64,000 nucleotides of DNA from the NCBI GenBank assembly GCA_040881665.1, contig JBBECT010000007.1, forward strand, positions 1-64,000, given 5' to 3'. The DNA comes from Actinomycetota bacterium. Its GTDB lineage: Bacteria > Actinomycetota > UBA4738 > HRBIN12. Both the position numbers and the translations under genes were made by a program. Shown here piece after piece: positions 2,065 to 32,605 of the stretch; position 1 is the first letter of the stretch; each line of letters opens with the position of its first letter. The notes under the pieces are model-generated. The model did no database searches, was not told the DNA's origin, and saw only the letters and a list, made by a program, of their open reading frames with translations.

Positions 2065-2142
2065 GCCGGTGAGCACGAGCTGAAGGGTGTCCCCGACCGT
2101 TGGCCTCTCTACCGGATGGTGGGCCGAGATGGAGCGTCCTGA
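2065..2142 (+). pseudogene. 3' tail of a lost hydrolase-cyclase gene
   Basis: This stretch encodes AGEHELKGVPDRWPLYRMVG, which is nearly identical to the last residues of the intact cyclase at 2129-3475 (AGEHELKGVPDRWHLYRVVA). Nothing of the cyclase domain precedes it. The tail runs 14 bases into the start of the intact gene, just as that gene's end runs into the next one. It looks like the residue of an upstream tandem copy that was deleted by recombination. Confidence 0.75.
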
Positions 2143-3475
2143 GACGCGATACGCGAAGAACGACGGGGTCGCGCTCGCGTATCAGCTCGTCGGACGGGGC
2201 GAGTCGGTGCTCGCCTACGTTCCCGGCTTCGCTTCGAACCTGGAGCTGAACTGGGGGAACCCACGGTACGCGCGGTTCCTGAGCCGGCTCGCCTCGTTCT
2301 CGCGGCTCGTCGTCGTCGACCGGCGCGGAACTGGGCTCTCGGATCGCCTCTCCGCGAGCGAACTACCCCCGATCGAGGTGCTCGTCGCCGACCTCCGCGC
2401 GGTCCTCGACGACGCGGGCATCGAGCGAGCGGCGCTCTTCGGCTTCGCCGACGGCGCCGACCTCTGCGCCTTGTTCGCCGCGTCGCATCCCGATCGGGCG
2501 TCGGCGCTGATCCTCTACGGAGCCTCGGCTGTGGGCACCCGTACCCCCGATGAACCGTGGGCATGGAGCTCGGACGATTGGCAGCGATACCTTCACGAGC
2601 TGGGCGAGAGCTGGGGGCACCGGGACTACATCGAATCGGTACTGCGATGGGCCGCCCCGAGCGCTTACGACGACCCGCATGTCCGGGAATGGTTCGTGAC
2701 CTACCAACGGCTCGCCGCGAGTCCTTCCGCGGTCGTGGCGATCGAGTCGATCTGGCGTGACATCGACATGCGCGCGGTGCTGCCCTCCATCGCCGTCCCC
2801 ACCCTGGTGCTGCACCGCACAGGCGACGCGATCGAATCTGTCGACGCCGGACGAAGCCTGAGCACGCGGATCCCGGGTGCGTCGTTCGTGGAGCTCAGCG
2901 GCGATGATCACCTTCCGTGGGCAGGTGATCAGGATGCCCTGCTCGACGAGGTAGAGGAGTTCCTGACGGGAACCCGACGAGGACCGGATCCCGATCGAGC
3001 GCTGGCGACGGTGCTCTTCACCGACATCGTCGGTTCAACCGCCCGCGCGGCAGAGCTTGGCGACGCACGATGGCGGAACGTCCTCGAAGATCACTACGCG
3101 CTCGTGAGAACGGAGCTCGCTCGACACCGCGGCGTTGAGATCGGCACCGCCGGAGACGGCTTCTTCGCGACCTTCGACGGCCCGGCTCGCGCCGTGCGCT
3201 GCGCGCTGAGCATCGCGTCGTCCAGCAGCCGGCTCGACCTCGAGATCCGGGCCGGAGTCCACACGGGGGAATGCGATCTGATCGACGGGAAGATCGGCGG
3301 CATCGGGGTGGCCATCGGCGCGCGGATCGGCGCGCTCGCGGGTCCATCAGAAGTGTTCGTGTCATCGACCGTGAAAGACCTCACGGCCGGTTCCGGACTC
3401 GTGTTCGAGGACGCCGGCGAGCACGAGCTGAAGGGCGTTCCCGATCGCTGGCACCTTTACCGGGTAGTCGCGTGA
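2129..3475 (+). CDS. Alpha/beta-hydrolase fused to class III adenylyl/guanylyl cyclase
   Basis: A 448-residue two-domain protein. Residues about 1-285 are an alpha/beta hydrolase: VDRRGTGLSDR, then FGFADGADLCALFAASHPDR, where the usual nucleophile elbow GxSxG reads GFADG, so the serine is absent and hydrolase activity is doubtful. Residues about 295-448 are a class III nucleotide cyclase: LATVLFTDIVGSTARAAELG carries the first metal aspartate, GDGFFATFDGP the second, and IRAGVHTGE follows. The ATG at 2129 begins MERPETRY, parallel to the next gene's MDIPETRY. The stop overlaps the next start (TGATG). Such fusions are common in Actinomycetota and probably use the dead hydrolase as a ligand sensor that drives cyclic-nucleotide synthesis. 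Confidence 0.9.
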   Translation: MERPETRYAKNDGVALAYQLVGRGESVLAYVPGFASNLELNWGNPRYARFLSRLASFSRLVVVDRRGTGLSDRLSASELPPIEVLVADLRAVLDDAGIERAALFGFADGADLCALFAASHPDRASALILYGASAVGTRTPDEPWAWSSDDWQRYLHELGESWGHRDYIESVLRWAAPSAYDDPHVREWFVTYQRLAASPSAVVAIESIWRDIDMRAVLPSIAVPTLVLHRTGDAIESVDAGRSLSTRIPGASFVELSGDDHLPWAGDQDALLDEVEEFLTGTRRGPDPDRALATVLFTDIVGSTARAAELGDARWRNVLEDHYALVRTELARHRGVEIGTAGDGFFATFDGPARAVRCALSIASSSSRLDLEIRAGVHTGECDLIDGKIGGIGVAIGARIGALAGPSEVFVSSTVKDLTAGSGLVFEDAGEHELKGVPDRWHLYRVVA

Positions 3476-6851: not shown

Positions 6852-6945
6852 AGCCGAGTCTGAAATCCTCCCTCGGCGCCGCCACTTGGAAGCGCCCGTG
6901 CTCCCGGAGTCCCGTTATCCCGCGCTATTGCTATCGGAGGGTTTC

Positions 6946-7425
6946 ATGAAAAGACTTCAGGACCCGGGCGGATCGCCCACTCTCACGTCCTTACGGAAAC
7001 CCGGCGGTGCGCCTGCCGAACTCTCCGACTCCTACAGAGTTCCAGCTTCCCGCGTTCAGGTCGAATCGCGCAGCGGCGCGATCCGCGTCAGCTTCCACGG
7101 CGAGTTGGACCTGGCATCGGCTCCGCTGATCAAGGAGGCGTTGCCTCGCGGTGCTGGATGCGGAGGCTGGGTCCTATTGGACGTTGACGGAATGTCGTTC
7201 ATGGACTGCACGGGTCTGCTTTCGATCTTGGAACTTGCCAGCGATGTGCGCGCGTCCGGAGGTGTCTTCGCCATCGCCAACTGCCCCCCGCAGGCCCGCC
7301 GCGTGTTCCAGCTGACCGAGCAGGAGGAGTTGTTGGATACGGACCTCCTGGCGCAGGTCCTCGCACACGCAGGGGACGCAAGTAATGGCAATCGTCAGGT
7401 CGAAGGAGCTGAGCAAGCACCGTGA
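6946..7425 (+). CDS. STAS-domain anti-anti-sigma factor
   Basis: A 159-residue protein. After a low-complexity N-terminus (about 1-45) comes an STAS domain: IRVSFHGELDLASAPLIKEAL, then the phosphorylation loop DVDGMSFMDCTGLLSI. In this loop the conserved DSSG serine region reads MDCTG, so the phosphorylated residue would be the threonine. The chosen ATG at 6946 has CGGAGGG about seven bases upstream. In partner switching the unphosphorylated STAS protein binds an HATPase anti-sigma factor and releases the sigma factor; the SpoIIE phosphatase at 601 and the MEDS-HATPase at 7788 are plausible partners. Its stop overlaps the next gene's GTG. Confidence 0.88.
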   Translation: MKRLQDPGGSPTLTSLRKPGGAPAELSDSYRVPASRVQVESRSGAIRVSFHGELDLASAPLIKEALPRGAGCGGWVLLDVDGMSFMDCTGLLSILELASDVRASGGVFAIANCPPQARRVFQLTEQEELLDTDLLAQVLAHAGDASNGNRQVEGAEQAP

Positions 7426-7787: not shown

Positions 7788-8717
7788 CTATCGGTAACGC
7801 ATCTGCAGGCGCACAACAGTTCCGGTCTCGAACGAGCGAACCTGCACGAGATCGCAGACCTGGTTCGCGATCCATATCCCGTAGCCCGACACGCTCTCGG
7901 ATCCAGGGCGGTGTCGGCCGGCCAGCGGATCGTCGATCCGTCCGCGGTCCTGGATCTCGCAGTACAACGCGTCAGCCTGCTCCCAAACCGTGAGGGTGCC
8001 GCCCCCACCGCCGTACCGAACGCTGTTCGTCGCGATCTCGTTCGCCGCGAGAACGAGGTCGCTTCGGCGAGATCCATCCAGTCCTGCCGCGGCGGCTCGC
8101 CGATGGATGAACGCCCGCAAGTCATGCAGATCGGCCTCCCCGAACCGCAACCCATAAGGCGTGACGACCGGATCTGGGAGAGGTTCATCGAAGGGTCGTG
8201 CGATCTCGGCCAGCTCACGAGCGGTCGAGCTGGGCCGTCTACCTGCCCGATCCCACTCGAACGGGTGGTTCCGGCGCGCCTCGTCGAGCACGGAGAGCTC
8301 GAGCGTCGCGGTATCGTACGGGCACGCGAGCCACAACGCAGCCCCGTCGGCGAACGCTAGATTGAGCAACGCCTCGTGGCGAGCGCACTCGGTCAGCTCG
8401 GCCGCCGAGCGGCCAGCCCAGATGGGCTCTCCGATCCCTCGCAGGCGGCGACCCAACCCCGCGTGCCGATCAACGAACTCTCGCCAGGCGGGGATGATCC
8501 GCGCCGGATTCTGTCCGACCCCAGCCATGTCCTCGAAGTAGACGTCGTCGGCGTCCGGCCCCAGGTCGGAACGCAGCATGTCGATCTTCGGTGCACCGAC
8601 GACCACGAGCACCGGCTCGTCCGCATGCACCCCGTCGCGGATGAACGGGCCGGTGCGCGCCACGAAGTCGTCCGTGCCTGTGTAGAAGAGCGCCTCGTGG
8701 CGGAAGGATTCAGTCAT
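7788..8717 (-). CDS. MEDS-domain sensor with HATPase (anti-sigma factor-like kinase)
   Basis: A 309-residue protein with two domains. Residues about 5-165 form an MEDS (MEthanogen/methylotroph, DcmR Sensory) domain: FRHEALFYTGTDDFV, then FIRDGVHADEPVLVVV and the distal EALLNLAFADGAALWLACPYD. Residues about 205-305 form an RsbW-like HATPase: DLVLAANEIATNSVRYGGG (N box) and SGYGIWIANQVCDLV (G box). Such proteins are anti-sigma factors or light/volatile-signal sensors that phosphorylate STAS proteins. It is convergent with the STAS gene and separated by only 27 bases. ATG at 8717 is preferred over a TTG two codons earlier. Confidence 0.88.
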   Translation of the reverse strand: MTESFRHEALFYTGTDDFVARTGPFIRDGVHADEPVLVVVGAPKIDMLRSDLGPDADDVYFEDMAGVGQNPARIIPAWREFVDRHAGLGRRLRGIGEPIWAGRSAAELTECARHEALLNLAFADGAALWLACPYDTATLELSVLDEARRNHPFEWDRAGRRPSSTARELAEIARPFDEPLPDPVVTPYGLRFGEADLHDLRAFIHRRAAAAGLDGSRRSDLVLAANEIATNSVRYGGGGGTLTVWEQADALYCEIQDRGRIDDPLAGRHRPGSESVSGYGIWIANQVCDLVQVRSFETGTVVRLQMRYR

Positions 8718-8723
8718 TGGCAA

Positions 8724-9084: not shown

Positions 9085-12000
9085 ATGCAGGTCGAGCGCC
9101 ACCCCGCGCCGAACGTGGATCGCGGACGATCCGGTGAGACGGTCCGGGGGATCGTGCTGCACACGAACGAGGGTTCGTTCGAGAGCACGCTCCGCTGGTT
9201 CGCACGCACCTCGAGCCGCGTCAGCGCGCACTATCTCGTGGCCCTCGACGGGCGTATTGCCTCATTCGCCGACGAGACGGACACGGCGCGCCACGCCGGG
9301 AGCAAGGTTCATGCCTCAAGCCCGCTCGTACGGGGCGTTCGCAACCCGAACCTGATCACGATCGGGATCGAGTTCGAGGACGGCGGCGACCCGGACGGTG
9401 CGATCCGAACCGACGCGCAGTACGCGGCCGGTGCGCGGCTGCTGCGGGAGATCGCCGGGCGGTGGGACGTCGCGCTCGACCGCGACCACGTCGTTGGCCA
9501 CCACGAGATCCGCGAGGATCGATCTTGTCCCGGGAATCTGGACATCGACCGCCTGCTCAAGGAGGCGGCCCAGGGCAGGGCCGGCGGCATCGTTTGTCTG
9601 CTCCCGGTCCGCAACGGGGTGCTGGACCTCCCGGGCTACCTCGACGCGGCAGCATCGTGGTGCGATGCGATCGTCGCCCTGGACGACGGCAGCACCGACG
9701 ACACACGCATGCTCCTCGACGAGCATCCCCACGTGCGTCGGGTGCTCGAGAACCCACCTCGGGCGACGGCCGCCGGCTGGCACGACGGGAAGAACCGGAA
9801 CCGCCTGCTGGAGGCCGCGGCCGGGCTCGCCCCTTCGTGGATCGTCTCGGTCGACGCCGATGAGCGGATCCCGCCGGCGGACGCCGCCGCGCTCCGAACG
9901 TTCCTAGACTCCGACGCTTTGCCGGCGGTGGCGTACGGCTTGCGGCACGTTCGCCTCTGGGGCGAGGATCGCGGCGATCCCACGCCGATGTGGGTCTACC
10001 GTGTGTTCGCGTTCGATCCCACGTACCGGTTCCCGAACGAGCGTCTGCACTTCAATCCCGTCCCCACCGCGATCGAACGCGGTGCATGGGTCCGAACGAC
10101 GTTGCGCGTGCTGCACCTCGGATCGCAGGACGAGATCCGTGTCGCCCAACGACGCCGCCGGTATGCGGAAGCCGACCCCGACGGCGAGTACCCGACCTCG
10201 TTCGGCGGCCTGGACGAGAGCCCCGCCCATACCGTGCCGCTGGCCGACCTCGAACCGTCGCCATCGGTGATCGCGCCGCTCGAGGACCAGTTCGGGCTGC
10301 GGCCGATGTTCGATCCGGACGCCGCGGGGGACGCAGCTGCCGAGAGCGAACGACCGCTCCTCGCCGTATTGCTTCCCGTGCGCAACGGCGAGGAGGATCT
10401 GCCCGCGTGGTTCAACTCGGTGCGCGCGTTCGCCGACGCGATCGTCGCGCTCGACGACGGCAGCACCGACGGAACGCGGAGGCTGCTGGAGGGCGAGCCA
10501 CTCGTCCACCGCTTGCTCACGATGCCCCGACGTCCCGACTACGTCGAGTGGGACGACGCCGGGAACCGGAACGCACTGCTGCGTGCCGCCGACGAGCTGC
10601 GTCCACAGTGGATCCTGTTCCTGGACGCCGACGAGCGCCTGGATGCCGACGACGCCGCCGCGCTGAGTGACTTCCTCGAGACCGACGCGGTGCCGGGGGA
10701 CGCCTACGGGCTCACGGTGCACCGGATGATCGGCGATCTGCAGCACTGGGATCGGGCGGACCTGGTGGCGTACCGGCTCTTCGCGTGGGAGAAGGGGCTC
10801 AGGCTCGACGACGACCGGCTGCACGCCCCGCCGGTGCCGGTCTCGATCCCGCAGGCCAGGTACGTCCCGACGACCTTGCGGATCATGCACCTCGCGAGCT
10901 TGACCCCGGAACGCCGCCGCAGGCGTTTCGCGAAGTACCGTCAGGCCGACCCGGACGGCGCGTTCCAGCCGGACTACGGCGACCTGCTCGCCGAGCCGGA
11001 GACGCTTCGCCCGTGGGACGGGCGAGCGGACGACATGGCCGTCGTGCCGTTCGCGGGCGAGGACGACGACGAACTGGCCCGCGCGCTCGCCGAAATCGAT
11101 CCGGAGGCGCCTGCCCTGTCCGCGATCGTGATCTCGCGAGACGACGAGGATGTGATCGAACGCTCGGTGCGGGCCGTGGTCGAGCAAGAGGTTCCCGAGC
11201 CGTTCGAGGTGATCGTCGTGACGAGCGGCACCGACCGGACCGCGCAGGTCGTGCGCGATCGATTCCCTGACGTGGTGGTGGTGGAGCTCGACCGCCCGGC
11301 GCTTCCCGGGGAGGCACGCAACGCCGGGCTGGCGGCGGCCCGTGGCGACTACGTGTCGTTCCCCGGATCCCACGTCGTGCTGGAGCCCGGAAGCCTGGCT
11401 GCCCGGATCGCGGCGCACCGGCTCGGCTACCCGATGGTTACCGGGACGACGCTCAACCTGACCGACACGCCTGCCGGCTGGGCTTCCTACTTCCTCGACC
11501 ATTCCGGGGTGCTGCCCGGCCGGCCGTCCCAGGAGCTCGCCTCGGCACCGTCCCATTGCTCCTACGACCGAGGTTTCCTCGAGGAGGTCGGCGGGTTCCC
11601 CGAACACCTGCGCGCCGGGGAGGACACGGTCGTGAACCTCCGCCTCGCCTCGCGGGGCTGTCGCGCCTATCGCGCCGAGGACGTGCGGTTCGGCCACCGC
11701 TCCCCCGCCGATACACCGGCCAAACTCGTGATGCACCACTTCCGTCGCGGCCGGGGCCTCGGAAGGATCCTGCTCGAGGGGGGGATCCGGCACGGCCGCG
11801 TGCTGACGCGTCAGACCCTCAAGATCCACCTCGTCGGGTACCTCCCCCGCCGCCTCAGGGGCATCGAGCGCAACGTCCGGCGCTGGGCCGACCCGGACCT
11901 GCGCGAGCGACACCGAGCCGTGCGTCCCCTGGTCGCGCTCGGCTCCGTCGCCGCATTGGCCGGGACCTGGGCGGAGGTGCTCAAACCCGGGCCAGGCAAG

Positions 12001-12906
12001 CTCCGCACGCTGATCGGGATCCCCTCGGTGCACGTCGCGATCGGCGGCCTCGACGCCCGGGCGACCCATCCGATCGGCCGCACCGACGTCCTCCTCGTCG
12101 CGAGGATCGAGCCGCTGCACGGAACGGTGCGGTTGCTCAGCCTCCCGCGCGATCTGCTCGTCGGCCTTCCCGGCCGGCGCGAGGCCCGCCTGAACGAGGC
12201 GTACTTCGTCGGGGCGATCGGGCCGGAGGCCGCAACAGCGAGCGGCGGCGCAGCGCGGTCGCCAGACACCGAGACCAGGGTCGACGCGCGGGCGGGTATG
12301 CGGCTGCTCGCGCGAGCGCTCGAGCGAACCCTCGGCGCGCGGATCGACGGCAGCGTGATCGTGGACTTCGAGGGGTTCCAGGGGCTGGTCGACACGCTCG
12401 GCGGACTGGACGTCGACGTGCCACACCCGATCGACGACGAGTTCGTCGCGGAGGATGGCGAGCACTTCTCCGCGCACTTCCGGAGCGGTCGCCAGATCCT
12501 CGACGGCGATGCGGCACTCACTTACGCGCGGACGCGTAAGGCCGACGGCGACGCGTGGCGCCGCGAGCGGCACGTCGATCTGATCCGCGCCGCCTTCCGC
12601 GCACTCCGCACGATCCGCTCGCCGTCCCGAGCTCTCCGGGTCGCGGGGACGGGGCTGCGCTCGATCCGCGTCGATCTCAGCGTCTACGCGGGCATCAAGG
12701 TGATCGCGGGACTCGCTCGAGCCCGCTCGATCGAGGCCGTCCAACTGGCTCCCCCCGTGGTGCGGTCGGTGAAGACGGAGCGGGGCAAGTGGGTCCACCG
12801 CGGCGACGCGGGGGAGATTAGGGACTTCGCGCGCCGGCGATGGGTCGACGGCGCAGGCGCGGACGGCCGCGAGTCCGGGGGCGTCCCCCGGGGGGCCGTC
12901 AGGTGA
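9085..12906 (+). CDS. Giant fusion: peptidoglycan amidase + three GT2-like domains + LCP domain
   Basis: One uninterrupted 1273-residue frame. Residues 1-165 are an Amidase_2/PGRP-like domain: RGIVLHTNEG, SAHYLVALDG and VVGHHEIREDRSCPGN carry the zinc ligands and catalytic region. Residues about 168-345 and 425-620 are two related GT2-like domains, each with LLPVRNG, AIVALDDGSTD and a DADER metal motif. Residues about 678-930 are a third GT2 domain: LSAIVISRDDEDVIERSV, then GEARNAGLAAARGDYVSF and GGFPEHLRAGEDT. Residues about 995-1175 are a LytR-CpsA-Psr domain (RTDVLLVARI, LSLPRDLLVGLPG, DGDAALTYARTRK). There is no clear signal peptide. The parts suggest building, trimming and attaching a cell-wall glycopolymer, but topology is puzzling because amidase and LCP domains normally act outside the membrane. 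Confidence 0.92.
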   Translation: MQVERHPAPNVDRGRSGETVRGIVLHTNEGSFESTLRWFARTSSRVSAHYLVALDGRIASFADETDTARHAGSKVHASSPLVRGVRNPNLITIGIEFEDGGDPDGAIRTDAQYAAGARLLREIAGRWDVALDRDHVVGHHEIREDRSCPGNLDIDRLLKEAAQGRAGGIVCLLPVRNGVLDLPGYLDAAASWCDAIVALDDGSTDDTRMLLDEHPHVRRVLENPPRATAAGWHDGKNRNRLLEAAAGLAPSWIVSVDADERIPPADAAALRTFLDSDALPAVAYGLRHVRLWGEDRGDPTPMWVYRVFAFDPTYRFPNERLHFNPVPTAIERGAWVRTTLRVLHLGSQDEIRVAQRRRRYAEADPDGEYPTSFGGLDESPAHTVPLADLEPSPSVIAPLEDQFGLRPMFDPDAAGDAAAESERPLLAVLLPVRNGEEDLPAWFNSVRAFADAIVALDDGSTDGTRRLLEGEPLVHRLLTMPRRPDYVEWDDAGNRNALLRAADELRPQWILFLDADERLDADDAAALSDFLETDAVPGDAYGLTVHRMIGDLQHWDRADLVAYRLFAWEKGLRLDDDRLHAPPVPVSIPQARYVPTTLRIMHLASLTPERRRRRFAKYRQADPDGAFQPDYGDLLAEPETLRPWDGRADDMAVVPFAGEDDDELARALAEIDPEAPALSAIVISRDDEDVIERSVRAVVEQEVPEPFEVIVVTSGTDRTAQVVRDRFPDVVVVELDRPALPGEARNAGLAAARGDYVSFPGSHVVLEPGSLAARIAAHRLGYPMVTGTTLNLTDTPAGWASYFLDHSGVLPGRPSQELASAPSHCSYDRGFLEEVGGFPEHLRAGEDTVVNLRLASRGCRAYRAEDVRFGHRSPADTPAKLVMHHFRRGRGLGRILLEGGIRHGRVLTRQTLKIHLVGYLPRRLRGIERNVRRWADPDLRERHRAVRPLVALGSVAALAGTWAEVLKPGPGKLRTLIGIPSVHVAIGGLDARATHPIGRTDVLLVARIEPLHGTVRLLSLPRDLLVGLPGRREARLNEAYFVGAIGPEAATASGGAARSPDTETRVDARAGMRLLARALERTLGARIDGSVIVDFEGFQGLVDTLGGLDVDVPHPIDDEFVAEDGEHFSAHFRSGRQILDGDAALTYARTRKADGDAWRRERHVDLIRAAFRALRTIRSPSRALRVAGTGLRSIRVDLSVYAGIKVIAGLARARSIEAVQLAPPVVRSVKTERGKWVHRGDAGEIRDFARRRWVDGAGADGRESGGVPRGAVR

Positions 12907-13588
12907 CTTCGAGTGCCTTCGGGGCGGACCAACCGGACGTCGCGCCGTTCGACGTCCGGCGCAGGCGAGCCCGGAACCGGAACGTCCCTCGGCGGCCCGG
13001 CGTGAACATCGTGCTTCGCGTGGTCACACTCGTCTTGAACGCCTTGTAGGTCGTGTCGTTCGGTCCTTTTCGCTGGACGTCGAACACATAGCCACTGAGC
13101 GTCCCCGAAGCCCACGTGATCTTGAAGGCGTTCCCGAGCGGACCCTGCTTCGGCTTCACCGTGATCGGCACCTTGATCGTGCCGGTCATGAACCCGACGT
13201 GGGAGGCCTGCTTACACGCATAGGCATACGTCCCGGCCGCGACGAACCGATCGACGAACTTCACCGATCCCGCGGCCGACAGCCCCGTGTCGAACAGTGC
13301 GAGGGGCGAGGTATCGGTCGCCGAGTGGGTGTGCTGGCTGAACTGAGAGAAGCCGAAGCGAGCACGCTGCCCCCGCTTCAGCTTCGCGGGATCCGGCGTG
13401 AACGAGTAGTCGCGAACCAGGATGTAGAAGTCACCGACCGTGCCGGCGGAGGCAGGGTTGCGGCGGAGGATATCGACGTAGGCGAGGGCGGCCATCGCGG
13501 ACACACCGGTGGCCACAAGGCGACGAACGAACACGCGCCTGCTGACCTGCCCGTCGAGGTAGCTCCGTACCAGCTCGTCCCGTGACAT
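12899..13588 (-). CDS. Tat-exported cupredoxin with C-terminal fibronectin-like domain
   Basis: A 229-residue protein. The N-terminus has a twin-arginine signal (SRRVFVRRLVATG followed by a hydrophobic run ending near ASA). Residues about 45-145 form a cupredoxin: FGFSQFSQHTHSATDTSP supplies the first histidine and YAYACKQASHVGFM supplies Cys-His-Met, a type 1 copper set. Residues about 155-229 look like a fibronectin type III strand pattern (FKITWASGTLSGYVFDVQRK, then GTFRFRARLRR). It probably carries electrons or copper outside the membrane. The start at 13588 is favoured because it puts the RR motif near the N-terminus. Its 3' end overlaps the end of the convergent giant gene by eight bases. 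Confidence 0.85.
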   Translation of the reverse strand: MSRDELVRSYLDGQVSRRVFVRRLVATGVSAMAALAYVDILRRNPASAGTVGDFYILVRDYSFTPDPAKLKRGQRARFGFSQFSQHTHSATDTSPLALFDTGLSAAGSVKFVDRFVAAGTYAYACKQASHVGFMTGTIKVPITVKPKQGPLGNAFKITWASGTLSGYVFDVQRKGPNDTTYKAFKTSVTTRSTMFTPGRRGTFRFRARLRRTSNGATSGWSAPKALEVT

Positions 13589-13734
13589 CCTCGGCCCCCT
13601 TCGACCGTCTCCGGCTCGGTCCGGGCAAGGGTAGTCATATCCCTGCCCGGAACACAACGGTCGAAGGTTGCAGCCCGGCTCCCGTCACGGGGCTCCGACC
13701 AAGCCGGTAGGCTGCATGCTTGGCTCGCAGCAAC

Positions 13735-14733
13735 CTATGGGGGAGGCAGACGGGTCCGACCCGCAAGCGTGGTCGATGGCGAGGGGCTTCTTCTTGACAG
13801 CCAACTGACAGCCAAGCGGATGGATGTCCACGGACGCTGGCGGACGTCCCCGGACTCGCACCGGGCTTCCACCTGCGCTCCTGGACGGCCTGACCGTGTT
13901 GTAGTACTCACAGAACCGATCCACCTGGGCTTGCAGCTGAGCGATCGTGTGTGCCGAGTCCTGCTTGGCGAGGAACCGCTTGAGCGTTTGATGCACCCGC
14001 TCGACCTTGCCGCAGGTCTGCGGGTGGTAGGGCCGAGAGTGCACCGAGCGGATCCCCAGGGCCGCGCACTCGAGCTCGATCGCGCACCGTCCGCCTCGAG
14101 GTGCCGCGGTGAACACCGCTCCGTTGTCGGTGAGCAGCGACGCCGGGAACCCGTGGACCGCAGCGGCTGCATGAAAGCTGTCCACGATGTCGGCAGCTTG
14201 AAGATCACTCGTGCATCGGAGGCCACGAGCAACCTGGAGTGATCGTCGATGATGTTCAAGATCTCGACCTCATCCCCGCCGGCCAAGCGGACGTGGGTGA
14301 TGTCGGCCTGCCAGCGTTCGTTGGGCATCTGGGCCTCGAAGCGCACGAACGAGCTCCGTGGGCGTTTGTGCGGCTGGGGCGTAACGAAGCCCCGGCGCAC
14401 CAAGATCCGCCAGATCGTGGAGACCGAAGGAACCGATGCATGTTCGTGGCGACGGCTCAGGTGCACCGCGATCGTGTGAGCACCGGCGTCCACCCCCAGG
14501 TCCAACAGCTCCTTGCGCAGCGCGACGATCTCGTCTTCGATCTGCACCCGTGTGCGCCTCGGGCTCCCAGACGGTCGGCGCGATCGAGGCTCCAGGCCGG
14601 CTTCGCCTTCGGCGTCGAAGCGTCGGACGAGTTCGTGGACCCATCGGCGGCTCACGCCGTAGTCACGAGCCACCTCCGCTTTGCTCCGACCTTCGACGCG
14701 TACCGCCGTGACGACCAATCGAGCCAAGGACAT
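13735..14733 (-). pseudogene. IS481-type transposase, frameshifted and truncated
   Basis: The N-terminal half is a helix-turn-helix (SKAEVARDYGVSRRWVHELV, then LEPRSRRP) followed by the start of a DDE integrase core (NERWQADITHVRL, IIDDHSRLLVA). At about 14198, after VIFK, one base is missing and the core continues in another frame: DIVDSFHAAAAVHGFP, LLTDNGAVF, then SRPYHPQTCGKVERVHQTLKRFL and RFCEYYNTVRP. Recognisable homology stops at about 13885, where the sequence changes to repeats unlike an IS481 C-terminus. The catalytic residues exist but are split between frames. IS481 elements do not normally need a programmed frameshift, so I call it dead. Confidence 0.85.
13795..13890. repeat. Candidate recombinase arm-type repeats (old attachment site?)
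   Basis: On the minus strand ggctgtca occurs twice at an 11-base period and is followed by agaagaag. Next to it (13822-13890) lies a stretch with gtcc/ggac steps at roughly ten-base spacing. The same plan, two tgtcaacg copies 11 bases apart followed by aagaag, sits beside tRNA-Lys at 60380. Short direct repeats at helical period are typical of tyrosine-recombinase arm sites, so this may be a relic of an attachment site. Similarity of layout is seen; the function is inferred. Confidence 0.35.
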
Positions 14734-17816: not shown

Positions 17817-19430
17817 CTACGCCAACGCCGAGCCGAACCGGTCGGACGCCTCGCCGGAATCCTTCAAGGTGCCACTCCGTTGCCACCAGAACTGACTGCC
17901 GGACGAGTTCAGTCCGTCATCCGCTCCGTAGATCACGTTGACCGCGCCGATGAGCGAGATCACCTCGAGTACCGGGAAGGTGTCTTCGTACCCTTCGCCT
18001 GGCACGCCGACGGCCAGGTCGGACTCCGGGCCCCGGCCGAAGTCTGCGATCGCGAGCGCCTGCCCGAAGGCATCCGACTTCTCGGGGGCACCCGCGATCC
18101 CCGAGCTTCCCTGGGTCCAAGCCTGAACGCTTGAAGTGCTTAGCCCCGTTGCGGATCCGTACACGACGATCGCCGATCCGGCGTTGGATTCATCTGGATC
18201 GTCGAACGGGATCCCGACGGCGAGGTCGTCCCGAGCGTCCCTTCCGAGATCGCCGGCGGCCAGAGCGGATCCGAAGGCGTCCCCGTCTGCGGCAGCGCCG
18301 GGAACCCCCGAACTGTTCAGGTACCAGATCTGGTTTCCAGCCGGGGCCAGGCCGGTCGCGGTTCCGTACAGGACCTGCGCCACGCCGGCATCGACCGCTC
18401 CCCCGGCATCTTCGCCCGGGACACCGATCGCGAGATCGCCGGTGGACTCCCTTCCGAACTCTCCTGTGGTCAGCGCCGCTCCGAAGTGATCCGCCGGCTC
18501 CGCGCCACCGCCCACCCCCGCGCTGTTCTGATGCCACAGCTGGTTCCCTTGAGAGGTGAGCCCGTTCCTCCCACCGTAGATCACGTTCACCGATCCCGCA
18601 TCCGCCTCCGTCGAGGTATTCAGGTCCTCGAGGGGAACACCGACGGCGAGGTCTGCTCGTGCGCTCGTTCCCACGTCCCCGATCGCGAGCGCGGACCCGA
18701 ACTCATCGGAGATCTCCGCGACGCCCGAGATCCCGGCGCTGTCCTGGTGCCAGAGCTGGTTCCCGCCCGAGCCGACACCGAACCCGCCGTACAACACGTT
18801 CACTGCACCAGCCCTGCTTACCGAGCCGACCCTGTCGCGCGGCGTCCCGATGGCCAGCTCGTCACCGGCCCCCGCCCCGAGGTTGCCCGCGGCGAGAGCG
18901 AAGCCGAACCGGTCTCCGGTTTGAACCACGCCGAGGATGCCCTGAGAGTTCTGCGTCAGAACGACGTCGCCGAACGCGGTGAGGCCGGACGGCGATCCGT
19001 ACGCCACGTGGACCACCCCTGCATCCGCCATGTTTCCGGTGGAGATCTGCACGTCCTCGAACGGCGCCCCGATGGCGAGGTCGTCGAACCCGTCGGCATC
19101 GAAGTCTCCCCAGGCCAGCGCGTGGCCGAATCGATCACCCGGCTCGACCGAGCCCGAGAGTGTGCCTTGCGTCAGGAACTGATCGTCGATCGGCGCGTCG
19201 CCGTTCAGGCCGTTCTGCGTCCCGTAGATGACCTCGACCCCACCGGCGTCGTCGTCGGAGCCGACGTCCTCGAACTCCACTCCGATCGCCAGGTCATGGT
19301 AGCCATCGCCGTTGAAGTCTCCCCGGCGCTCTGGAGACGGTGCAGCCTCGGCCAGCAAGCCCATGGGAGACGGCAGCACGGTCAGAGCGGCAACGAAAGC
19401 CGTGACCGTGACCCAGATGCGACGCCGCAT
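17817..19430 (-). CDS. Secreted FG-GAP (integrin alpha-like) beta-propeller protein
   Basis: A 537-residue protein with a signal peptide (MRRRIWVTVTAFVAALTVLP... cleaved near AEAAP). The rest consists of about seven FG-GAP repeats, each with a calcium-binding D-x-D-G-D-x-x-D-L-type loop (DFNGDGYHDLAIGVEFED; GDFDADGFDDLAIGAPFED), a V.YG...GL strand and a closing DRFG.AL turn. This is the integrin alpha N-terminal propeller. The last repeat stops at DRFGSALA, in the middle of a unit, so the C-terminus may be truncated or the propeller closes with the N-terminal blade. It probably has an extracellular adhesive or ligand-binding role. Confidence 0.9.
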   Translation of the reverse strand: MRRRIWVTVTAFVAALTVLPSPMGLLAEAAPSPERRGDFNGDGYHDLAIGVEFEDVGSDDDAGGVEVIYGTQNGLNGDAPIDDQFLTQGTLSGSVEPGDRFGHALAWGDFDADGFDDLAIGAPFEDVQISTGNMADAGVVHVAYGSPSGLTAFGDVVLTQNSQGILGVVQTGDRFGFALAAGNLGAGAGDELAIGTPRDRVGSVSRAGAVNVLYGGFGVGSGGNQLWHQDSAGISGVAEISDEFGSALAIGDVGTSARADLAVGVPLEDLNTSTEADAGSVNVIYGGRNGLTSQGNQLWHQNSAGVGGGAEPADHFGAALTTGEFGRESTGDLAIGVPGEDAGGAVDAGVAQVLYGTATGLAPAGNQIWYLNSSGVPGAAADGDAFGSALAAGDLGRDARDDLAVGIPFDDPDESNAGSAIVVYGSATGLSTSSVQAWTQGSSGIAGAPEKSDAFGQALAIADFGRGPESDLAVGVPGEGYEDTFPVLEVISLIGAVNVIYGADDGLNSSGSQFWWQRSGTLKDSGEASDRFGSALA

Positions 19431-23237: not shown

Positions 23238-24275
23238 ATGCGTGCCATGGCCGTTACCGCGTACGGGGATCCGCTCACCTTGCTCGATCTGCCCGAGCCC
23301 GACCTCCCTCCCGGCTTCGCGCTGCTCGACGTGCTCGCATCCGGTGTCTGCTTCACGGACGTGAAGATCGCGCGGGGACGCATGCCGTCCAGCGCCGACC
23401 TCGCACTCCCCCACGTTCCCGGACACGAGGTGTGCGCAGCCGTCGTCGGAACCAACCCACCGGGCGTGCTCGCGACCGGGACGCGCGCGATCGTGTACCA
23501 GTACTGGTCGTGCGGGCGGTGCCCGGCCTGCCGACGCGGACACGACGCGATGTGCTCGTCGCTCGAGGGGTGGATGGGGTTCCGCGACCCGGGCGGGTTC
23601 GAGGAGCGCCTGATCGCCCCCGTCGATCGGCTGATCCCGGTGCCGACGTCGGTCGACCCGATCCACGCTGCCCCGATGTCGTGCGCGCTCGGGACCGCCT
23701 ACCGATCGGTCGTCACCCGTGGCGGGGTGCGTGCGGCGAACCGTGTCGCGGTCATCGGCCTCGGAGGTGTCGGGATCCACGCCGCGCAGGTGGCGATCGC
23801 GTCAGGGGCCCACGTCGTGGGATTCGACGTCCACGACCCCACGCTCACGCGGGCAGGTGAGCTCGGCATCGACGCCCGACGCAGCGACGATGCGGAGGCC
23901 ATCGCGGCGACGATCGACGAAACGGGAGGCGAGGGGGTCGACGTGGTGATCGAGACCGTCGCCCATGAGGCTACGCTGTCGCTCGCGAACGCCCTCGTCC
24001 GGAAGGGGGGACGGATCGTCGCCGTCGGACACGCGCCCACGACAGCACTCACCCTCCCAACGGTCCGTCTCGTCCTCGACGAGGTCGAGATCGTGGGTTC
24101 CCGCTACGCATCCCTCGACGAGATGCACCGGGCGGTCGCGCTCGTCGCCGACGGCAGGGTCCGTCCCGTGGTCGGCCTCGTCCGGCCCCTCGAAGAGGTC
24201 AACGAGGTCCTCGAAGCCCTTGAGTCCGGCGAGGTCGTCGGGAGGGCGGTTCTCGACGTCTCGAGTGGGTCCTAG
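23238..24275 (+). CDS. Second zinc-dependent alcohol dehydrogenase
   Basis: A 345-residue medium-chain dehydrogenase only distantly similar to its upstream neighbour. SGVCFTDVKIARGR and VPGHEVCAAVVG hold the catalytic zinc ligands; CGRCPACRRGHDAMC the structural zinc; VAVIGLGGVGIHAAQVA the NAD(P)-binding loop. It starts 18 bases after the previous stop and very likely shares its transcript. The ATG at 23247 is an alternative start. Its end overlaps the end of the convergent hydroxyacid dehydrogenase by four bases. The substrate is unknown; the family oxidises alcohols or reduces aldehydes. Confidence 0.88.
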   Translation: MRAMAVTAYGDPLTLLDLPEPDLPPGFALLDVLASGVCFTDVKIARGRMPSSADLALPHVPGHEVCAAVVGTNPPGVLATGTRAIVYQYWSCGRCPACRRGHDAMCSSLEGWMGFRDPGGFEERLIAPVDRLIPVPTSVDPIHAAPMSCALGTAYRSVVTRGGVRAANRVAVIGLGGVGIHAAQVAIASGAHVVGFDVHDPTLTRAGELGIDARRSDDAEAIAATIDETGGEGVDVVIETVAHEATLSLANALVRKGGRIVAVGHAPTTALTLPTVRLVLDEVEIVGSRYASLDEMHRAVALVADGRVRPVVGLVRPLEEVNEVLEALESGEVVGRAVLDVSSGS

Positions 24276-25252
24276 CCTCGTCGCTCTGCGAGGGCCGCCG
24301 CGTTCACGGCGTACGGGGGCGCCTGACCCGCCAGCACCGCCACGACCTGTTCCGCCGCCTTGCGCTGGAGCTCGGCCACGGATTCCTCGCTGTAGAACGC
24401 TGCGTGTGGGGTCACGATCACGTTGTCCCTGCGGAGAAGGGGGTCGTCGGCCGCCGGGGGTTCGGTTTCGAGCACATCCAACCCCACGCCACCCAGCCGC
24501 CCCGTCTCGAGCGCGGCATCTAGGGCATCGTGGTCGATCAATGGACCACGTGAAGTGTTGATCAGGAACGCCCCGGGCTTCATGATCGCCAGTTCCGTGT
24601 CCCCGATCAGATGTCGCGTCTGTTCCGTGAGAGGTGCATGGAGCGAGACGATGTCGGCGTCCGCCAGCAACGCCTCGAGGGGCAGGGGTTCGCCGCCTGC
24701 GGCCCGTACCACATCGTCGGGCACGAAGGGGTCGTACACGGCGACCGCTAACCCGAGCGAACCGCACTTCGCAGCCAGCGTCGTGGCGATCTTCCCGAAC
24801 CCGATCAGCCCCAGCGTCCGACCCCGCAACCGATGGAGCGGACGCGCGTCCGAGGGTGTCCACGAACCGCCGCGCACGCTTCGATCGAGGCGCGCGACCC
24901 CTCGGGCGAGCGCGAGCATCAGCGCGAGCGCATGGTCCGAGACCTCGTCGACACAGTAGTCGGGGACGTTCGTGACGACGATCCCTCTGGCAGTCGCCGC
25001 GTCGAGGTCGATCGTGTCCAGGCCGATCCCGTAGCGCGCGATCACCCGGCACGCCTCGAGCTCCCGGATCACCTCGGCCGGGATCACCGTGTAGCAGTTC
25101 AGGATCGCATCTGCCCCCGCGACGGCAGCTCGGACCTCGTCGGGCGTCGTGGCGTTCCGTTCGAATCGCAGTTCGTGGCCGGCCGCCTCCAAGAGCGCAC
25201 GCTCGCGGTCGAGATCGGTGAAGACGTGATCGGTGACGGCGACTACTGCCAT
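24272..25252 (-). CDS. D-2-hydroxyacid dehydrogenase (phosphoglycerate-dehydrogenase/CtBP-like)
   Basis: A 326-residue NAD-dependent dehydrogenase: LGLIGFGKIATTLA is the Rossmann loop, and the catalytic triad is the arginine of NTSRGPLIDHD, the glutamate of DVLETEPPA and the histidine of VTPHAAFYSEES. The HAAFYSEES variant is typical of the C-terminal-binding-protein-like subgroup. It is the last gene of a minus-strand run that begins at 30484 (aldolase, M24 protein, dikinase-like enzyme, amidohydrolase, dehydrogenase) and could reduce or oxidise the 2-oxo/2-hydroxy acid produced by the aldolase or the amidohydrolase. Confidence 0.9.
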   Translation of the reverse strand: MAVVAVTDHVFTDLDRERALLEAAGHELRFERNATTPDEVRAAVAGADAILNCYTVIPAEVIRELEACRVIARYGIGLDTIDLDAATARGIVVTNVPDYCVDEVSDHALALMLALARGVARLDRSVRGGSWTPSDARPLHRLRGRTLGLIGFGKIATTLAAKCGSLGLAVAVYDPFVPDDVVRAAGGEPLPLEALLADADIVSLHAPLTEQTRHLIGDTELAIMKPGAFLINTSRGPLIDHDALDAALETGRLGGVGLDVLETEPPAADDPLLRRDNVIVTPHAAFYSEESVAELQRKAAEQVVAVLAGQAPPYAVNAAALAERRG

Positions 25253-25289
25253 AGCGGTCCAGCTCCTTCGGTGCGTGCGGGTCGGATGT

Positions 25290-26285
25290 TCATCGTTCGA
25301 GGCGCAGCAGCCGGGCGGCGTTCCCCCCGGTCACGAGGACGCGCTGTTCGTCGGTCAACCCGTCGACCTGCCCGACGAGCCCAACCGGATCCTCCTCGCC
25401 CATGTCGAACGGATAGTCGGTGCCCATGAGGACGTGATCGGCCCCGAAGTCCTCGATCAGCCGCCCCAGCTGCACCGGGTCGTAAACCATCGTGTCGAAG
25501 TGCAGCTGTCGCAGATACGTGCTCGGAGTGCGGGAGATGTGTTCGCGGGTCTCCGGTCGCACTTCGTAGGCGTGATCGAACCGAGCCGGGTAGAACGGAA
25601 GGTACCCACCCCCATGGACGACGCAGATCTTCAGCTCACCGAAGCGCTCCAACACTCCCCCGAAGATCATGTGGGCGAGGAAGACCGTCGAGTCCAGCGG
25701 CATGCCCACCGTGTTGATCATGTAGTGCTCCGTGAACCGCTCCCCCTGCGTGAAGCCGTGTGGGTGGACGACGAGCAGCAGATCGAGCTCTTGAACACGC
25801 TGGAAGAAGGGCACGAAGCGGGCGTCGTCGAAGTCGATGCCATTCACGTTCGTGCAGATCTCGACCCCCGTGAATCCGAGATCGCCGGCCAGACGGTCGA
25901 GCTCGATGATCGCGCGGTCGACGTCTTGCAGCGGCAGCGTTCCCAGCGCGCGGAACCGATCCGGATGCCGCTGGACGATACCGGCGAGATTGTCGTTGTG
26001 CAGCCGGGACAGTCGCTCCCCCAGCTCGGGCTCGGTCCAATAGAAGTACTGGGGAGGGGCGATCGCGATCGCCTGCACATCGACACCCATGCGATCCATG
26101 TCCCGCAGGCGCTCTTGCGGATCGACGAACTTGGGTCGCAGGCGTTCGACCTGACTCCGGTTGACGGCATCACTCGCCGCACCCGAATAGCGGAAGAACG
26201 GGTCCACCTCGGGCGAGAAGAACGGGGCCACCAGCTCCTCACACTCGGGGGTCAGCACGTGGCAGTGGATATCGATCGTCGTCAC
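25290..26285 (-). CDS. ACMSD-like amidohydrolase (amidohydrolase family 2), paralogue A
   Basis: A 331-residue TIM-barrel metalloenzyme. HCH near the N-terminus (MTTIDIHCHVLTPE), LLVVHPHGFT, KICVVHGGGYLPFY and LMGTDYPFDMGEE give the HxH, His, His and Asp metal ligands of the aminocarboxymuconate-semialdehyde decarboxylase family, whose members carry out non-oxidative decarboxylations or hydrolyses. Two paralogues are at 30591 and 32606. The start overlaps the previous gene's stop by four bases (ATGA), so translation is coupled. The family is clear; whether it decarboxylates an aromatic acid or hydrolyses a lactone or amide cannot be told. Confidence 0.9.
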   Translation of the reverse strand: MTTIDIHCHVLTPECEELVAPFFSPEVDPFFRYSGAASDAVNRSQVERLRPKFVDPQERLRDMDRMGVDVQAIAIAPPQYFYWTEPELGERLSRLHNDNLAGIVQRHPDRFRALGTLPLQDVDRAIIELDRLAGDLGFTGVEICTNVNGIDFDDARFVPFFQRVQELDLLLVVHPHGFTQGERFTEHYMINTVGMPLDSTVFLAHMIFGGVLERFGELKICVVHGGGYLPFYPARFDHAYEVRPETREHISRTPSTYLRQLHFDTMVYDPVQLGRLIEDFGADHVLMGTDYPFDMGEEDPVGLVGQVDGLTDEQRVLVTGGNAARLLRLER

Positions 26286-27970
26286 GCTCCGACTCCCCCG
26301 ATCCGTGTCGAGGAGCGAGCCGGATCAGTCACGGTGACGATACCGTTGCATCCGTCGACCGTCGCGAGAGCGCCATCGAGGCCGGCTAGATGAACGCCGA
26401 CCACCGCGGGCACGCCGAGCGATCGAGCGACTTCGAACAGGTGCGCTCCAGGGCTCCCCGAGGCCGCCACCAATCCCGCGCTGTTCCACAGCAGCGGCGC
26501 GAGCTGCGGCAGGGGCTGCGACACGGCGAGCACCGCCCGCGGACCCGGGGTTGCCGAAACGCTTCCGTCGACCACCGACACGATGCCCGCACCGATCCCG
26601 GGACACACTGCCGTGCCCTCGGAAGCGGCGCCGGCCCAGCGCACGACATCAACCACGAAGGGTTCCCAGCGGTCGGGCCCGCGCCGGATCGGTGGTCGCG
26701 ACCCCTCGCGCGCCGCCCGCTCGAGCTCTCGGACCGAGAGGCGCCAGACCAGTCGGGCGTCGGGCAGCACACCCGTCTGCTCCAGCGCCTCCCCGATCCC
26801 TTCCACCAGTCCCAGGATGCGGCGAACGGTTCCGGGATGTGGAGGATCACATCGCTCCGAGAGCGACGCAGGCCACGCCTCCGGCTCCGCCCCGAGCAGA
26901 GACCGAGCCCGCGCCTCGGCGGCGCGGAAGGCGACATGAGGTGGCGATCGCCAGACCTGCCCCGTCAGGCCATCGGCGAGCGATCGCGCCTCGGCGAGCG
27001 CGGCGACCGGATCGGGCGTAGGGATCGCCCTCGCCTCGGGCACATCGAGTGCCGCGTACACCCACGGGATCACGAGCTCGTCGCCTAACGGCGCGGGATA
27101 GCGCCGGACCGTCGCAGCCAGTCGCTCGGCGCCCTGCGGCATCGCACGGGACGTGATGGTCGTGATCGAGGGGGCGGGCGAAGCCGACGGCACGGGCAGC
27201 CGCCGGGCTTGCAACAGAAGGATCCCGTCATCCGCCCACCCCCACTCGATCGCGTCGGCGTCGATCGTCGACGCCAGATCTCGTACGAGCCGCCCGGCCT
27301 CGATCGCCCAACGCGGCGTCAGTCCGTCCAGGCCGGCACCCATGTGGACCGTGCCGTCCGCCGACACCTCCGCCAGGACCCCGGATCGCCGCCCGCTCAC
27401 GAGCGTGTCCGGACCCGCGGCGGTCGCGGCGATCGACACCCGGCCGTCGGGTTCCAACCGAGCGGTACCGCCCGCGTCGAATCGCACCCAGGGCTGCAGG
27501 AGCACACCGATCCGAAGAGCATCCGGAGCCACGCCCGCCGCGACCGAGCGCTCGATCACATCCTTGGTGAACGCCGAGGCCCAGCACCCTCGCACACCCA
27601 CCGGAAGATGCTCGGGGTCGACGTCGTGGTAGGTCGCGAAAGCCCCCGACCACCGGCCGTCCTCGTCCAGCGGCGTGGACGATCGCACCACGAGGGTCCC
27701 CTCGAGGAGGGAACCGACGCGACCGAGGTCGCGATCGAGCGCCGGATCGAGCCGTCCGTCGGAGATCGCCAGGGTCGCGGCCGACGGTCCCGAACGGTCG
27801 AGGGCCTCCACGCCGGCGCGGATCGCAACCGCCGACTCGGCGCACGGAACCACCCACCCCCCGAGCACCGGGAACCCGGCCTCGAGGGCACGCGCCAGCC
27901 CCGCGGCCTTGGCTCCGACGGACCCGGGTTGACGAGCCGGCTCCTCGGCGAGCGAGATGAGCCGCTCCAC
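26282..27970 (-). CDS. PEP-synthase/rifampicin-phosphotransferase-like dikinase of unknown substrate
   Basis: A 562-residue protein with the ATP-grasp half of PEP synthases (about 1-255: GAKAAGLARALEAGFPV, LVVRSSTPLDEDGRWSGAF, DADAIEWGWADDGILLLQAR), a helical middle domain (about 265-445) and the swivelling phosphohistidine domain (about 455-545). The catalytic histidine is H510 in AHLFEVARSLGVPAVVG. There is no PEP-binding TIM barrel, so the architecture matches rifampicin phosphotransferases, though shorter (those are about 870 residues). It would transfer phosphate from ATP to an unknown acceptor bound by the middle domain. It is translationally coupled to the amidohydrolase after it, so the acceptor is probably the pathway substrate. 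Confidence 0.8.
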   Translation of the reverse strand: MERLISLAEEPARQPGSVGAKAAGLARALEAGFPVLGGWVVPCAESAVAIRAGVEALDRSGPSAATLAISDGRLDPALDRDLGRVGSLLEGTLVVRSSTPLDEDGRWSGAFATYHDVDPEHLPVGVRGCWASAFTKDVIERSVAAGVAPDALRIGVLLQPWVRFDAGGTARLEPDGRVSIAATAAGPDTLVSGRRSGVLAEVSADGTVHMGAGLDGLTPRWAIEAGRLVRDLASTIDADAIEWGWADDGILLLQARRLPVPSASPAPSITTITSRAMPQGAERLAATVRRYPAPLGDELVIPWVYAALDVPEARAIPTPDPVAALAEARSLADGLTGQVWRSPPHVAFRAAEARARSLLGAEPEAWPASLSERCDPPHPGTVRRILGLVEGIGEALEQTGVLPDARLVWRLSVRELERAAREGSRPPIRRGPDRWEPFVVDVVRWAGAASEGTAVCPGIGAGIVSVVDGSVSATPGPRAVLAVSQPLPQLAPLLWNSAGLVAASGSPGAHLFEVARSLGVPAVVGVHLAGLDGALATVDGCNGIVTVTDPARSSTRIGGVGA

Positions 27971-27974
27971 GAAG

Positions 27975-29213
27975 CTAGTCGACCACCGTGATCTCGTCGA
28001 TCGGGAACGAGGTGATGAGCTCGTGACCGGTCTCGGTGACGACGAGCATCTCCTCGAGCCGGACGCCGAACTCGTGCACCTTGCCGTGCTGGGTCTCCAG
28101 TGCGAAGACCATCCCCGGCTTGATCTCGATCGGGTGATCGAGCGACCAGATCCGCGAGATCACCGGCTGGTCGTACTGCGCGAGTCCGAGACCGTGACCC
28201 CACAGGTTCGCGGCGGCTTCGTCCTCGTCCGCGTACCCCCAGGTCTCCATGGCCGACGGCCACTTCGAGGCGATGTCGCGCGTGCTGACTCCGGGCGCGA
28301 CGGCATCGATCGAGTCGCGGAGCCACTTCAGAGCCGTGTCGTAGTAGGAGCGCATCTCGTCGGTGGGCTTGCCGCCGACGCAGTAGGTCCGGTAGACGCA
28401 CGACTTGAAACCGTTCCAGGTCAGCGCCGCGACGTCGATGATCACCAGCTCCCCGGGCCGGATGATGCGGTCGGAGAAGTTCCGCCAGTTCGGCCAGGCG
28501 TTCGGACCCGACGACACGATGATGTCCTCGACATCTTCGACTCCCGGGTAGTTGTAGAGGAACTCGAACCCGTGAGCGGCCACCTGGTTCTCGGTGAGGC
28601 CCGGACGGATGAACTGGGTCATCTCGTAGTGGAGCGCGTCGCACATCGAGCCCACGATCCGCGAGCAGTTCTGTTCGTCCGGACTCTTGATCGCGCGAGC
28701 CTCCATCATCGGCGTCATCCCGTCGGTCCAGGTGATGCCCGCGCGCTCGAACGTCTTCATCATCGTGAGGTCGATGAAGTCGACCCCGAGCGGCCGGTCT
28801 TTCACACCCGCGTCCTCTAGGTCTCCCGCCAGCGCCTCGGTGAACTTCTCCACCTGCATCATCGAGGCGGGTCCGGCCGCACCCTTGATCCATGCGAACG
28901 AGTGCCGCACGTTCTGAGGTGGGATCCAGGGCGAGTGCTCCTTGATGTGGATGCCGATGTCACCCTGCTCGTACAGGATCGGCTCTCGGCCGTCGACGAG
29001 CACCGCGTAGCGCAGGCCGGGCTTGAGCTTGTTCCATCCCGGCGTCAACGTGGACGTGACGTAGCGGATGTTCTCGTCGTACATCATCAGCATCGCGCCC
29101 AGCCCATGACGCTTCATCGCGTCGCGTGCGCGCTCCAGACGGTACGCACGCACCGCATCCCAGTTGATGCCCCGTTTCCATTCGATGTTCGCGTAGCCGA
29201 ACGCTTCCTTCAT
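27975..29213 (-). CDS. M24-family (creatinase/Xaa-Pro dipeptidase-like) protein with altered metal site
   Basis: A 412-residue pita-bread-fold protein: an N-terminal creatinase-type domain (ALMMYDENIRYVTSTLTPGW) and a catalytic domain with NAWPNWRNFSDRIIRPGEL, GHGLGL, ALETQHG and VRLEEMLVVTE. Of the five usual metal ligands, the first aspartate (IIDVAAL, lacking the usual D-x-G), the histidine and both glutamates are there, but the second aspartate of the 'SDxTRT' motif is a cysteine (KSCVYRTY). It may therefore bind one metal or be a metal-free hydrolase like creatinase itself. It follows the aldolase gene by 53 bases and precedes the dikinase by 4, inside one operon. Confidence 0.85.
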   Translation of the reverse strand: MKEAFGYANIEWKRGINWDAVRAYRLERARDAMKRHGLGAMLMMYDENIRYVTSTLTPGWNKLKPGLRYAVLVDGREPILYEQGDIGIHIKEHSPWIPPQNVRHSFAWIKGAAGPASMMQVEKFTEALAGDLEDAGVKDRPLGVDFIDLTMMKTFERAGITWTDGMTPMMEARAIKSPDEQNCSRIVGSMCDALHYEMTQFIRPGLTENQVAAHGFEFLYNYPGVEDVEDIIVSSGPNAWPNWRNFSDRIIRPGELVIIDVAALTWNGFKSCVYRTYCVGGKPTDEMRSYYDTALKWLRDSIDAVAPGVSTRDIASKWPSAMETWGYADEDEAAANLWGHGLGLAQYDQPVISRIWSLDHPIEIKPGMVFALETQHGKVHEFGVRLEEMLVVTETGHELITSFPIDEITVVD

Positions 29214-29266
29214 CTGTGTGGCTCCTTCTTCTCGGTCTCGGTGTGCGCGGTTCTCGTGCGGACCGG

Positions 29267-30484: not shown

Positions 30485-30518
30485 ATCGCTCCCCTCAGAA
30501 CACCCGGATCCGGATGGT

Positions 30519-30534: not shown

Positions 30535-30590
30535 GCTCACGAAGCGGGCCCGGTCCCGTGCCTGGGGACTCACGGACACAGGAGTGAACG

Positions 30591-32600: not shown

Positions 32601-32605
32601 CGAGA

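Follow-up and report, generated by a model that had tools for sequence, protein, structure and literature searches.

In the 64,000-nucleotide stretch of Actinomycetota DNA that we analysed (hereafter the window), one forward-strand gene at 9085-12906 encodes a 1273-residue protein in which an Amidase_2 domain, three glycosyltransferase family 2 (GT2) domains, a hydrophobic helix and a LytR-CpsA-Psr (LCP) domain follow one another in a single chain. The fusion frame is genuine, well above chance expectation, and known wall-glycan enzymes seem to have been brought together locally in this protein as a real, new combination. The combination is unique as far as we searched, and its base is a small conserved family with three joined GT2 domains, whose likely role is surface-glycan assembly and attachment. 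For the whole protein, we put at about even the chance that it is a membrane-tethered surface-glycan enzyme built of known modules, in which cytoplasmic glycosyltransferases (GTs) are tethered to an LCP ligase on the outside. The gene and its parts are as follows.

9085..12906 (+): whole gene, 1273 aa; Amidase_2, three GT2 domains, helix and LCP domain
9133..9537 (+): Amidase_2 domain, residues 17-151; Pfam E 7e-23, weak AmpD match
9580..10254 (+): GT2 domain 1, about residues 166-390; DDGSTDDT at 200, DADER at 257
10360..11034 (+): GT2 domain 2, about residues 426-650; DDGSTDGT at 457, DADER at 514
11110..11784 (+): GT2 domain 3, about residues 676-900; GEDT motif retained at 845
11359..11373 (+): FPGSH, residues 759-763, replacing the DxD metal-binding motif of GT2 domain 3
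11923..11982 (+): hydrophobic helix 947-966, which closes the GT core C-terminally and opens the LCP part; candidate membrane anchor
12046..12762 (+): LCP domain, about residues 988-1226; Pfam core 999-1173 (nucleotides 12079-12603)

The reading frame and its host genome

The frame runs from an ATG start to a stop codon through 1273 codons with no internal stop. Pfam examination of the protein returned Amidase_2, Glycos_transf_2, Glyco_tranf_2_4 and LytR_cpsA_psr, each above its curated cut-off; Glycos_transf_2 matched three stretches (E 1.5e-32), and Glyco_tranf_2_4 (PF13704) matched two, overlapping two of those three. When we calculated a coding score from codon log-likelihoods, with the window itself as training set, the frame scored 237, the top value in the window. 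In sliding steps of 150 nucleotides, frame 1 was the best everywhere in the gene, the domain joins included, and the guanine-cytosine content of third codon positions was 0.80-0.96 over every join. Pfam, coding score and codon usage agree with the first-pass annotation, which had read here a continuous 1273-residue frame with an amidase, three GT2-like domains and an LCP domain in that order. An antisense open reading frame (ORF) at 9904-12798 (964 aa) was considered as the true gene and ruled out, its coding score being -24 against 237.

The host genome (G000) comprises 2.46 Mb in 7 contigs and is 96% complete. It contains four WhiB matches, and WhiB was found in 33 of 61 sampled phylum genomes and, among 14 control genomes, in Corynebacterium only; the host is therefore a member of the Actinomycetota. 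The class used for comparison is an uncultured one, covered here by 27 genomes, all from one order, among which the host is the sole representative of its genus. An assembly chimera is very unlikely to be the source of the fusion, because the assembly has so few contigs, the frame and codon usage are continuous, and the convergent gene downstream is kept in both relatives that lack the LCP domain.

Amidase, glycosyltransferase, helix and LCP parts

GT2 domains 1 and 2 are sister domains with 45% identity, in line with the mutual similarity noticed at first pass, and both have a GT-A fold with the DDGS and DxD-type motifs. The DDGS and DADE motifs are retained in these two domains of all three long family members, which come from the host and from the genomes G001 and G010. 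Domain 2 matches GmaR (E 1e-5), and domain 3 has a weak match to TarS (E 1e-3), in which its SFPGSH falls opposite VDSDDY. At the DxD position of domain 3 all three family members carry FPGSH, while six outgroups keep an Asp. Domain 3 thus lacks a DxD-type metal-binding motif, although the fold and the acidic GED motif persist, and the earlier assignment as a third GT2 domain holds in so far as the domain is GT2-like. Since the DxD is lost, the domain is probably unable to bind a metal-nucleotide-sugar in the usual manner, and it should not be named an active GT2.

In the AlphaFold model the GT domains mostly have predicted local distance difference test values of 80-95. The best fold match of this model in the PDB is K4CP, the tandem-GT2 chondroitin polymerase of E. 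coli, followed by TarP, TarS, RmlT and heparosan synthase among others; the template modelling (TM) scores are low since the query is multi-domain, and these matches are evidence at the family level only. K4CP and the P. multocida heparosan synthase share with the fusion two motif-intact GT2 domains in one soluble chain, but the fusion differs in that its two domains are close sisters, in its third GT2 domain without DxD, and in the additional amidase and LCP domains. The wall teichoic acid enzymes TarS and TarP, as well as RmlT, have the GT2 fold in common with it at about 10-20% identity, and differ from its domain 3 in the missing DxD. GmaR, which acts on flagellin, shares DxGSTD and DADE with domain 2, and GT2 chains with tetratricopeptide repeats (TPR) from a Clostridia metagenome-assembled genome are weakly similar to the fusion, which contains no TPR repeats.

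Elsewhere in the phylum the two GT types occur as separate genes. In G238, a stand-alone GT of 260 aa is 46% identical to domain 2 and adjoins a gene related to domain 3. In G069, relatives of both types lie about 1.4 kb apart, and the other ORFs of that stretch look, when read by eye, like rmlA, rmlB, rmlC, rmlD and further glycosyltransferases; a domain-3 relative in G141 lies near an ORF that looks by eye like an ABC-2 exporter. Both GT types thus stem from surface-polysaccharide contexts. Two other arrangements were seen: at L033:2802-4835 of G141, two domain-3-related GT2 genes on opposite strands have slightly overlapping start regions if the listed starts are right, and at L006:103-3270 of G017 a differently arranged chain has two GT2 domains, one of which is related to domain 3 (41%).

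The LCP domain was identified by Pfam, by fold prediction and by its intact active-site residues, which bears out its first-pass identification. The LytR_cpsA_psr match at 999-1173 has an E-value of 1e-26 (PF03816, 94 bits against a cut-off of 24.6), and TIGR00350 scores 83 against a cut-off of 62. R1022, N1037, R1149, R1151, D1156 and R1159, which are invariant in 50 LCPs, are all kept, as are D990 and D1001, which are nearly invariant among the 50. As the reference catalytic set we used R118, R219 and R227 of TagT and R149 and R266 of A. oris LcpA; mapped by motif spacing, R1022 corresponds to TagT R118 and A. oris R149, and R1159 to TagT R227 and A. oris R266, the residues needed for activity in those enzymes (PMC6381275). 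When modelled separately, the domain was predicted to adopt the LCP fold (predicted TM score 0.73), with TagV, Cps2A and LcpA as best PDB matches (E 1e-16 to 1e-14) and TagV and TagT as nearest solved relatives.

In LCP trees, the class has two well-supported orthologous (housekeeping) groups, and the fused LCP belongs to neither but stands on a long branch. The top match from the phylum sample shares 32% identity with it, and it is about 25-36% identical to other LCPs. The idea that it is a displaced housekeeping LCP is not supported, as it falls outside both groups and the host carries one member of each elsewhere in its genome. Among five other LCPs of the class that we scanned, none was fused to a GT or an amidase. 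The domain, the fold and the catalytic Arg/Asp set are common to the known LCP transferases (TagT/TagU/TagV, Cps2A, S. aureus LcpA and A. oris LcpA), and so is one helix directly ahead of the domain. Here, in contrast, the helix belongs to the GT part, about 940 residues of amidase and GT take the place of the short tail before the helix in known LCPs, and Pfam found no LytR_C domain in the fusion.

The sole candidate membrane segment of the protein is 944-966 (Kyte-Doolittle 1.5). The AlphaFold model places a confidently predicted helix, 947-966, inside this segment, where the C-terminal helical part of GT domain 3 ends. Insertion energies were predicted by formula, and two known transmembrane helices as controls gave -1.5 and -1.05; the helix scored +1.1 in the host, -0.6 in G001 and +0.45 in G010. 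Three stand-alone LCP anchors of the family had values from -0.6 to +0.15, and in six cytosolic enzymes even the best segment did not fall below +1.6. The first-pass annotation had seen neither a signal peptide nor a clear membrane anchor. We likewise saw no signal peptide, but on the anchor that reading is partly wrong, as the helix is a candidate anchor and is more membrane-like in both relatives. A typical LCP has an N-terminal transmembrane helix and an extracellular catalytic domain (PMC7831098). Since the helix directly precedes the LCP domain, the fusion sets a candidate membrane helix of the GT part exactly at the LCP anchor position.

The amidase domain fits the Amidase_2 profile and weakly matches AmpD, but its NCBIfam AmpD score is 41.7, far under the cut-off of 143, and it differs from AmpD also in being joined to glycosyltransferases. 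Candidate zinc-site residues H26, H139 and C148 together with Tyr50 are retained in the host protein and in G001, as judged by motif and alignment, while the alignment to AmpD is weak; we take H26, H139 and C148 to be the zinc ligands and Y50 the catalytic Tyr of an Amidase_2 wall hydrolase on the basis of the motif. No signal peptide or hydrophobic N-terminal segment that could serve as an export signal was seen in the amidase part, which would for this reason lie on the cytoplasmic side. In several of its nearest stand-alone relatives the domain is preceded by a hydrophobic or twin-Arg-like segment. No LCP or related GT gene was found within about 10 kb of the nearest amidase relatives in seven genomes or loci. 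With a single membrane crossing, the LCP and amidase domains would lie on opposite sides, which is at odds with the earlier assumption that both are extracytoplasmic.

Relatives of the fusion and its convergent neighbour

Homologues were sought at family and class level and in 397 genomes sampled from the phylum; as this is a sample, absence elsewhere in the phylum is provisional. Only two long homologues were found. That of G001 is 980 aa long and 57% identical, contains the amidase and three GT2 domains and stops just past the hydrophobic helix; a separate LCP gene on the same strand ends 30 bp upstream, so that an LCP is linked to the GT gene in a second genus, in a different way. The G001 assembly has 7% contamination and its contig needs caution, but the gene and its neighbour nonetheless match. 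The homologue of G010 is 800 aa long and 58% identical, consists of three GT2 domains alone and begins directly at GT domain 1. The GT core is thus 57-58% conserved in two genera other than that of the host. Because the long relatives lack the LCP domain (G001) or both the amidase and the LCP domain (G010), we consider that the triple GT2 is the stable core by sequence, while the amidase and LCP parts vary. In the alignment the C-terminus is common to all three proteins up to GTW, after which a short tail follows in G001 and G010 and the LCP domain in the host, indicating that the LCP was gained at the gene end in the host or lost from both relatives. Homologues split at the domain joins, which had been named at first pass as grounds to doubt the fusion, are half in evidence: neither relative has the LCP in its chain, as a separate gene or at all, and one also lacks the amidase, but all proteins have their three GT2 domains joined.

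No precedent for the fusion was found in the literature searched, nor the domain order in the 397-genome sample, and the earlier statement that the order is undescribed holds to that extent. Viral relatives of the fusion were not found, nor were intermediate architectures within the order of G238. The Streptomyces cglA locus groups LCP, amidase and glycosyltransferase genes (PMC11481543); the genes are separate there and form one chain here, and the closest amidase relatives of the fusion are not placed in this way.

Directly downstream lies a gene that converges on the fusion gene.

12899..13657 (-): convergent gene, 252 aa, one N-terminal hydrophobic segment, no Pfam match

This gene, which we take to encode a secreted protein, and its homologues in G001 and G010 all carry the N-terminal hydrophobic segment and stand tail-to-tail with the GT gene, with an overlap of a few bases; the family also occurs in ten further class genomes without the GT gene.

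Possible function and genomic neighbourhood

The topology, activity and coupling that we infer would be as follows. The three GT2 domains would form a stable core on the cytoplasmic face, where domains 1 and 2, with intact donor-site motifs, probably extend a growing lipid-linked glycan with sugars and domain 3 probably acts as a scaffold, binds the acceptor or docks to the membrane. The conserved hydrophobic C-terminal helix of the core would enter or cross the membrane and stand in for the usual N-terminal LCP anchor, placing the LCP domain outside; this domain may then take the completed glycan-phosphate off its polyprenyl-pyrophosphate carrier and attach it to peptidoglycan or a surface protein. 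The amidase, in the cytoplasm, could cut, or merely bind, muropeptides or wall precursors. A flippase and priming enzymes would still be required as separate proteins. Priming had earlier been placed in the same chain, but Pfam finds no PF00953 or other sugar-1-phosphate transferase domain anywhere in the protein, and three strong PF00953 genes (MraY/WecA/TagO type) lie on other contigs of the host genome; the proposed priming, synthesis and attachment therefore shrink to at most synthesis and attachment.

A membrane-tethered surface-glycan enzyme is supported by the continuous coding frame and the conservation of the GT core in two other genera, and by other members of the phylum in which both GT types are encoded side by side by genes of their own, in G069 within an rml cluster. 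In addition, the fold matches K4CP, TarP, TarS and RmlT are capsule or wall-glycan enzymes, and the LCP part has complete catalytic residues, a predicted LCP fold and a preceding helix as in ordinary LCPs; the LCP gene next to the amidase-GT gene of G001 points the same way. Several observations weigh against it. The complete domain order is seen in one genome only, and no glycan-synthesis genes adjoining the fusion gene were recognised within the window. The host helix is marginal as a membrane span, and the LCP encoded upstream in G001 is not clearly kin of the fused LCP, although grouping the latter with the group of that LCP was not significantly rejected (approximately unbiased test, p-AU 0.09; long branches are involved). 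Furthermore, the lack of an export signal in the fused amidase, against the export-like segments of its closest stand-alone kin, is a mismatch.

Synthesis may plausibly be coupled, across the membrane, to attachment by the LCP. The fuller proposal, that one chain couples glycan assembly inside to attachment outside via one helix while the cytoplasmic amidase senses or trims wall precursors and so matches glycan supply to wall growth, can be put forward only tentatively. We hold it rather unlikely that tethering occurs without coupling, the GT and LCP parts working in their own pathways, with the LCP captured in frame and the GT helix a mere anchor. The homologous proteins of G001 and G010 without LCP are in keeping with this, as are the long branch of the fused LCP without close kin and the description of LCP enzymes as unspecific for the glycan (PMC12220298); on the other hand, an LCP gene adjoins the GT gene in G001 too, and the usual place of an LCP gene is close to the genes of the glycopolymer that it serves (PMC12220298). 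A misplaced LCP, inside and inactive because the weak helix does not cross, in a recent near-neutral accident of fusion, seems to us distinctly unlikely. It would fit the marginal insertion energy, the occurrence in a single genome and the long branch, but all checked catalytic residues are kept at only about 25-36% identity, pointing to selection, and the helix, though the least hydrophobic of its class, is clearly apart from the other segments of the protein.

There is a slight chance that the LCP domain puts the glycan on a surface protein, for which the convergent gene may code, as in the LcpA/GspA pair of A. oris. Linked LCP and target genes are known in an actinobacterium (PMC6381275), and the convergent gene is conserved beside the GT gene in three genera; yet its family is present in ten other class genomes lacking the GT gene, and tail-to-tail genes form no operon. 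Least credible of all, and negligible in our judgement, is an assembly artefact or frame error merging two genes at the GT-LCP boundary: that the fusion was seen in one genome would agree with it, but the 7-contig assembly, the unchanged frame and codon usage over the join and the downstream neighbour at its conserved place all speak against it, and no second copy of the fused LCP was found in the host genome.

LCP enzymes are normally separate proteins, and how a particular glycan is directed to a particular LCP has yet to be established. A chain found in nature that links GT2 domains to an LCP through one membrane helix would be a ready-made test of the coupling of synthesis and attachment, and one small bacterial family shows several chain states: three GT domains; amidase and three GT domains with an adjoining LCP gene; and the full fusion.

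Other features of the window were noted as well. About 0.8 kb downstream of the fusion gene, a transposase with helix-turn-helix and integrase-core (rve) matches is split over two overlapping frames, through either programmed frameshifting or decay (13685-14733, -). Close upstream lie parts of a partner-switching regulatory system, namely SpoIIE phosphatase, STAS and MEDS-HATPase genes (601-1779, 6886-7425 and 7788-8723). An alpha/beta hydrolase joined to an adenylate/guanylate cyclase domain is encoded at 2087-3475 (+). Further downstream, a secreted-looking FG-GAP repeat protein of 537 aa is encoded at 17817-19430 (-), and three Amidohydro_2 genes interspersed with two D-2-hydroxyacid dehydrogenases and an HMGL-like gene at 24272-33574 are probably a catabolic cluster.

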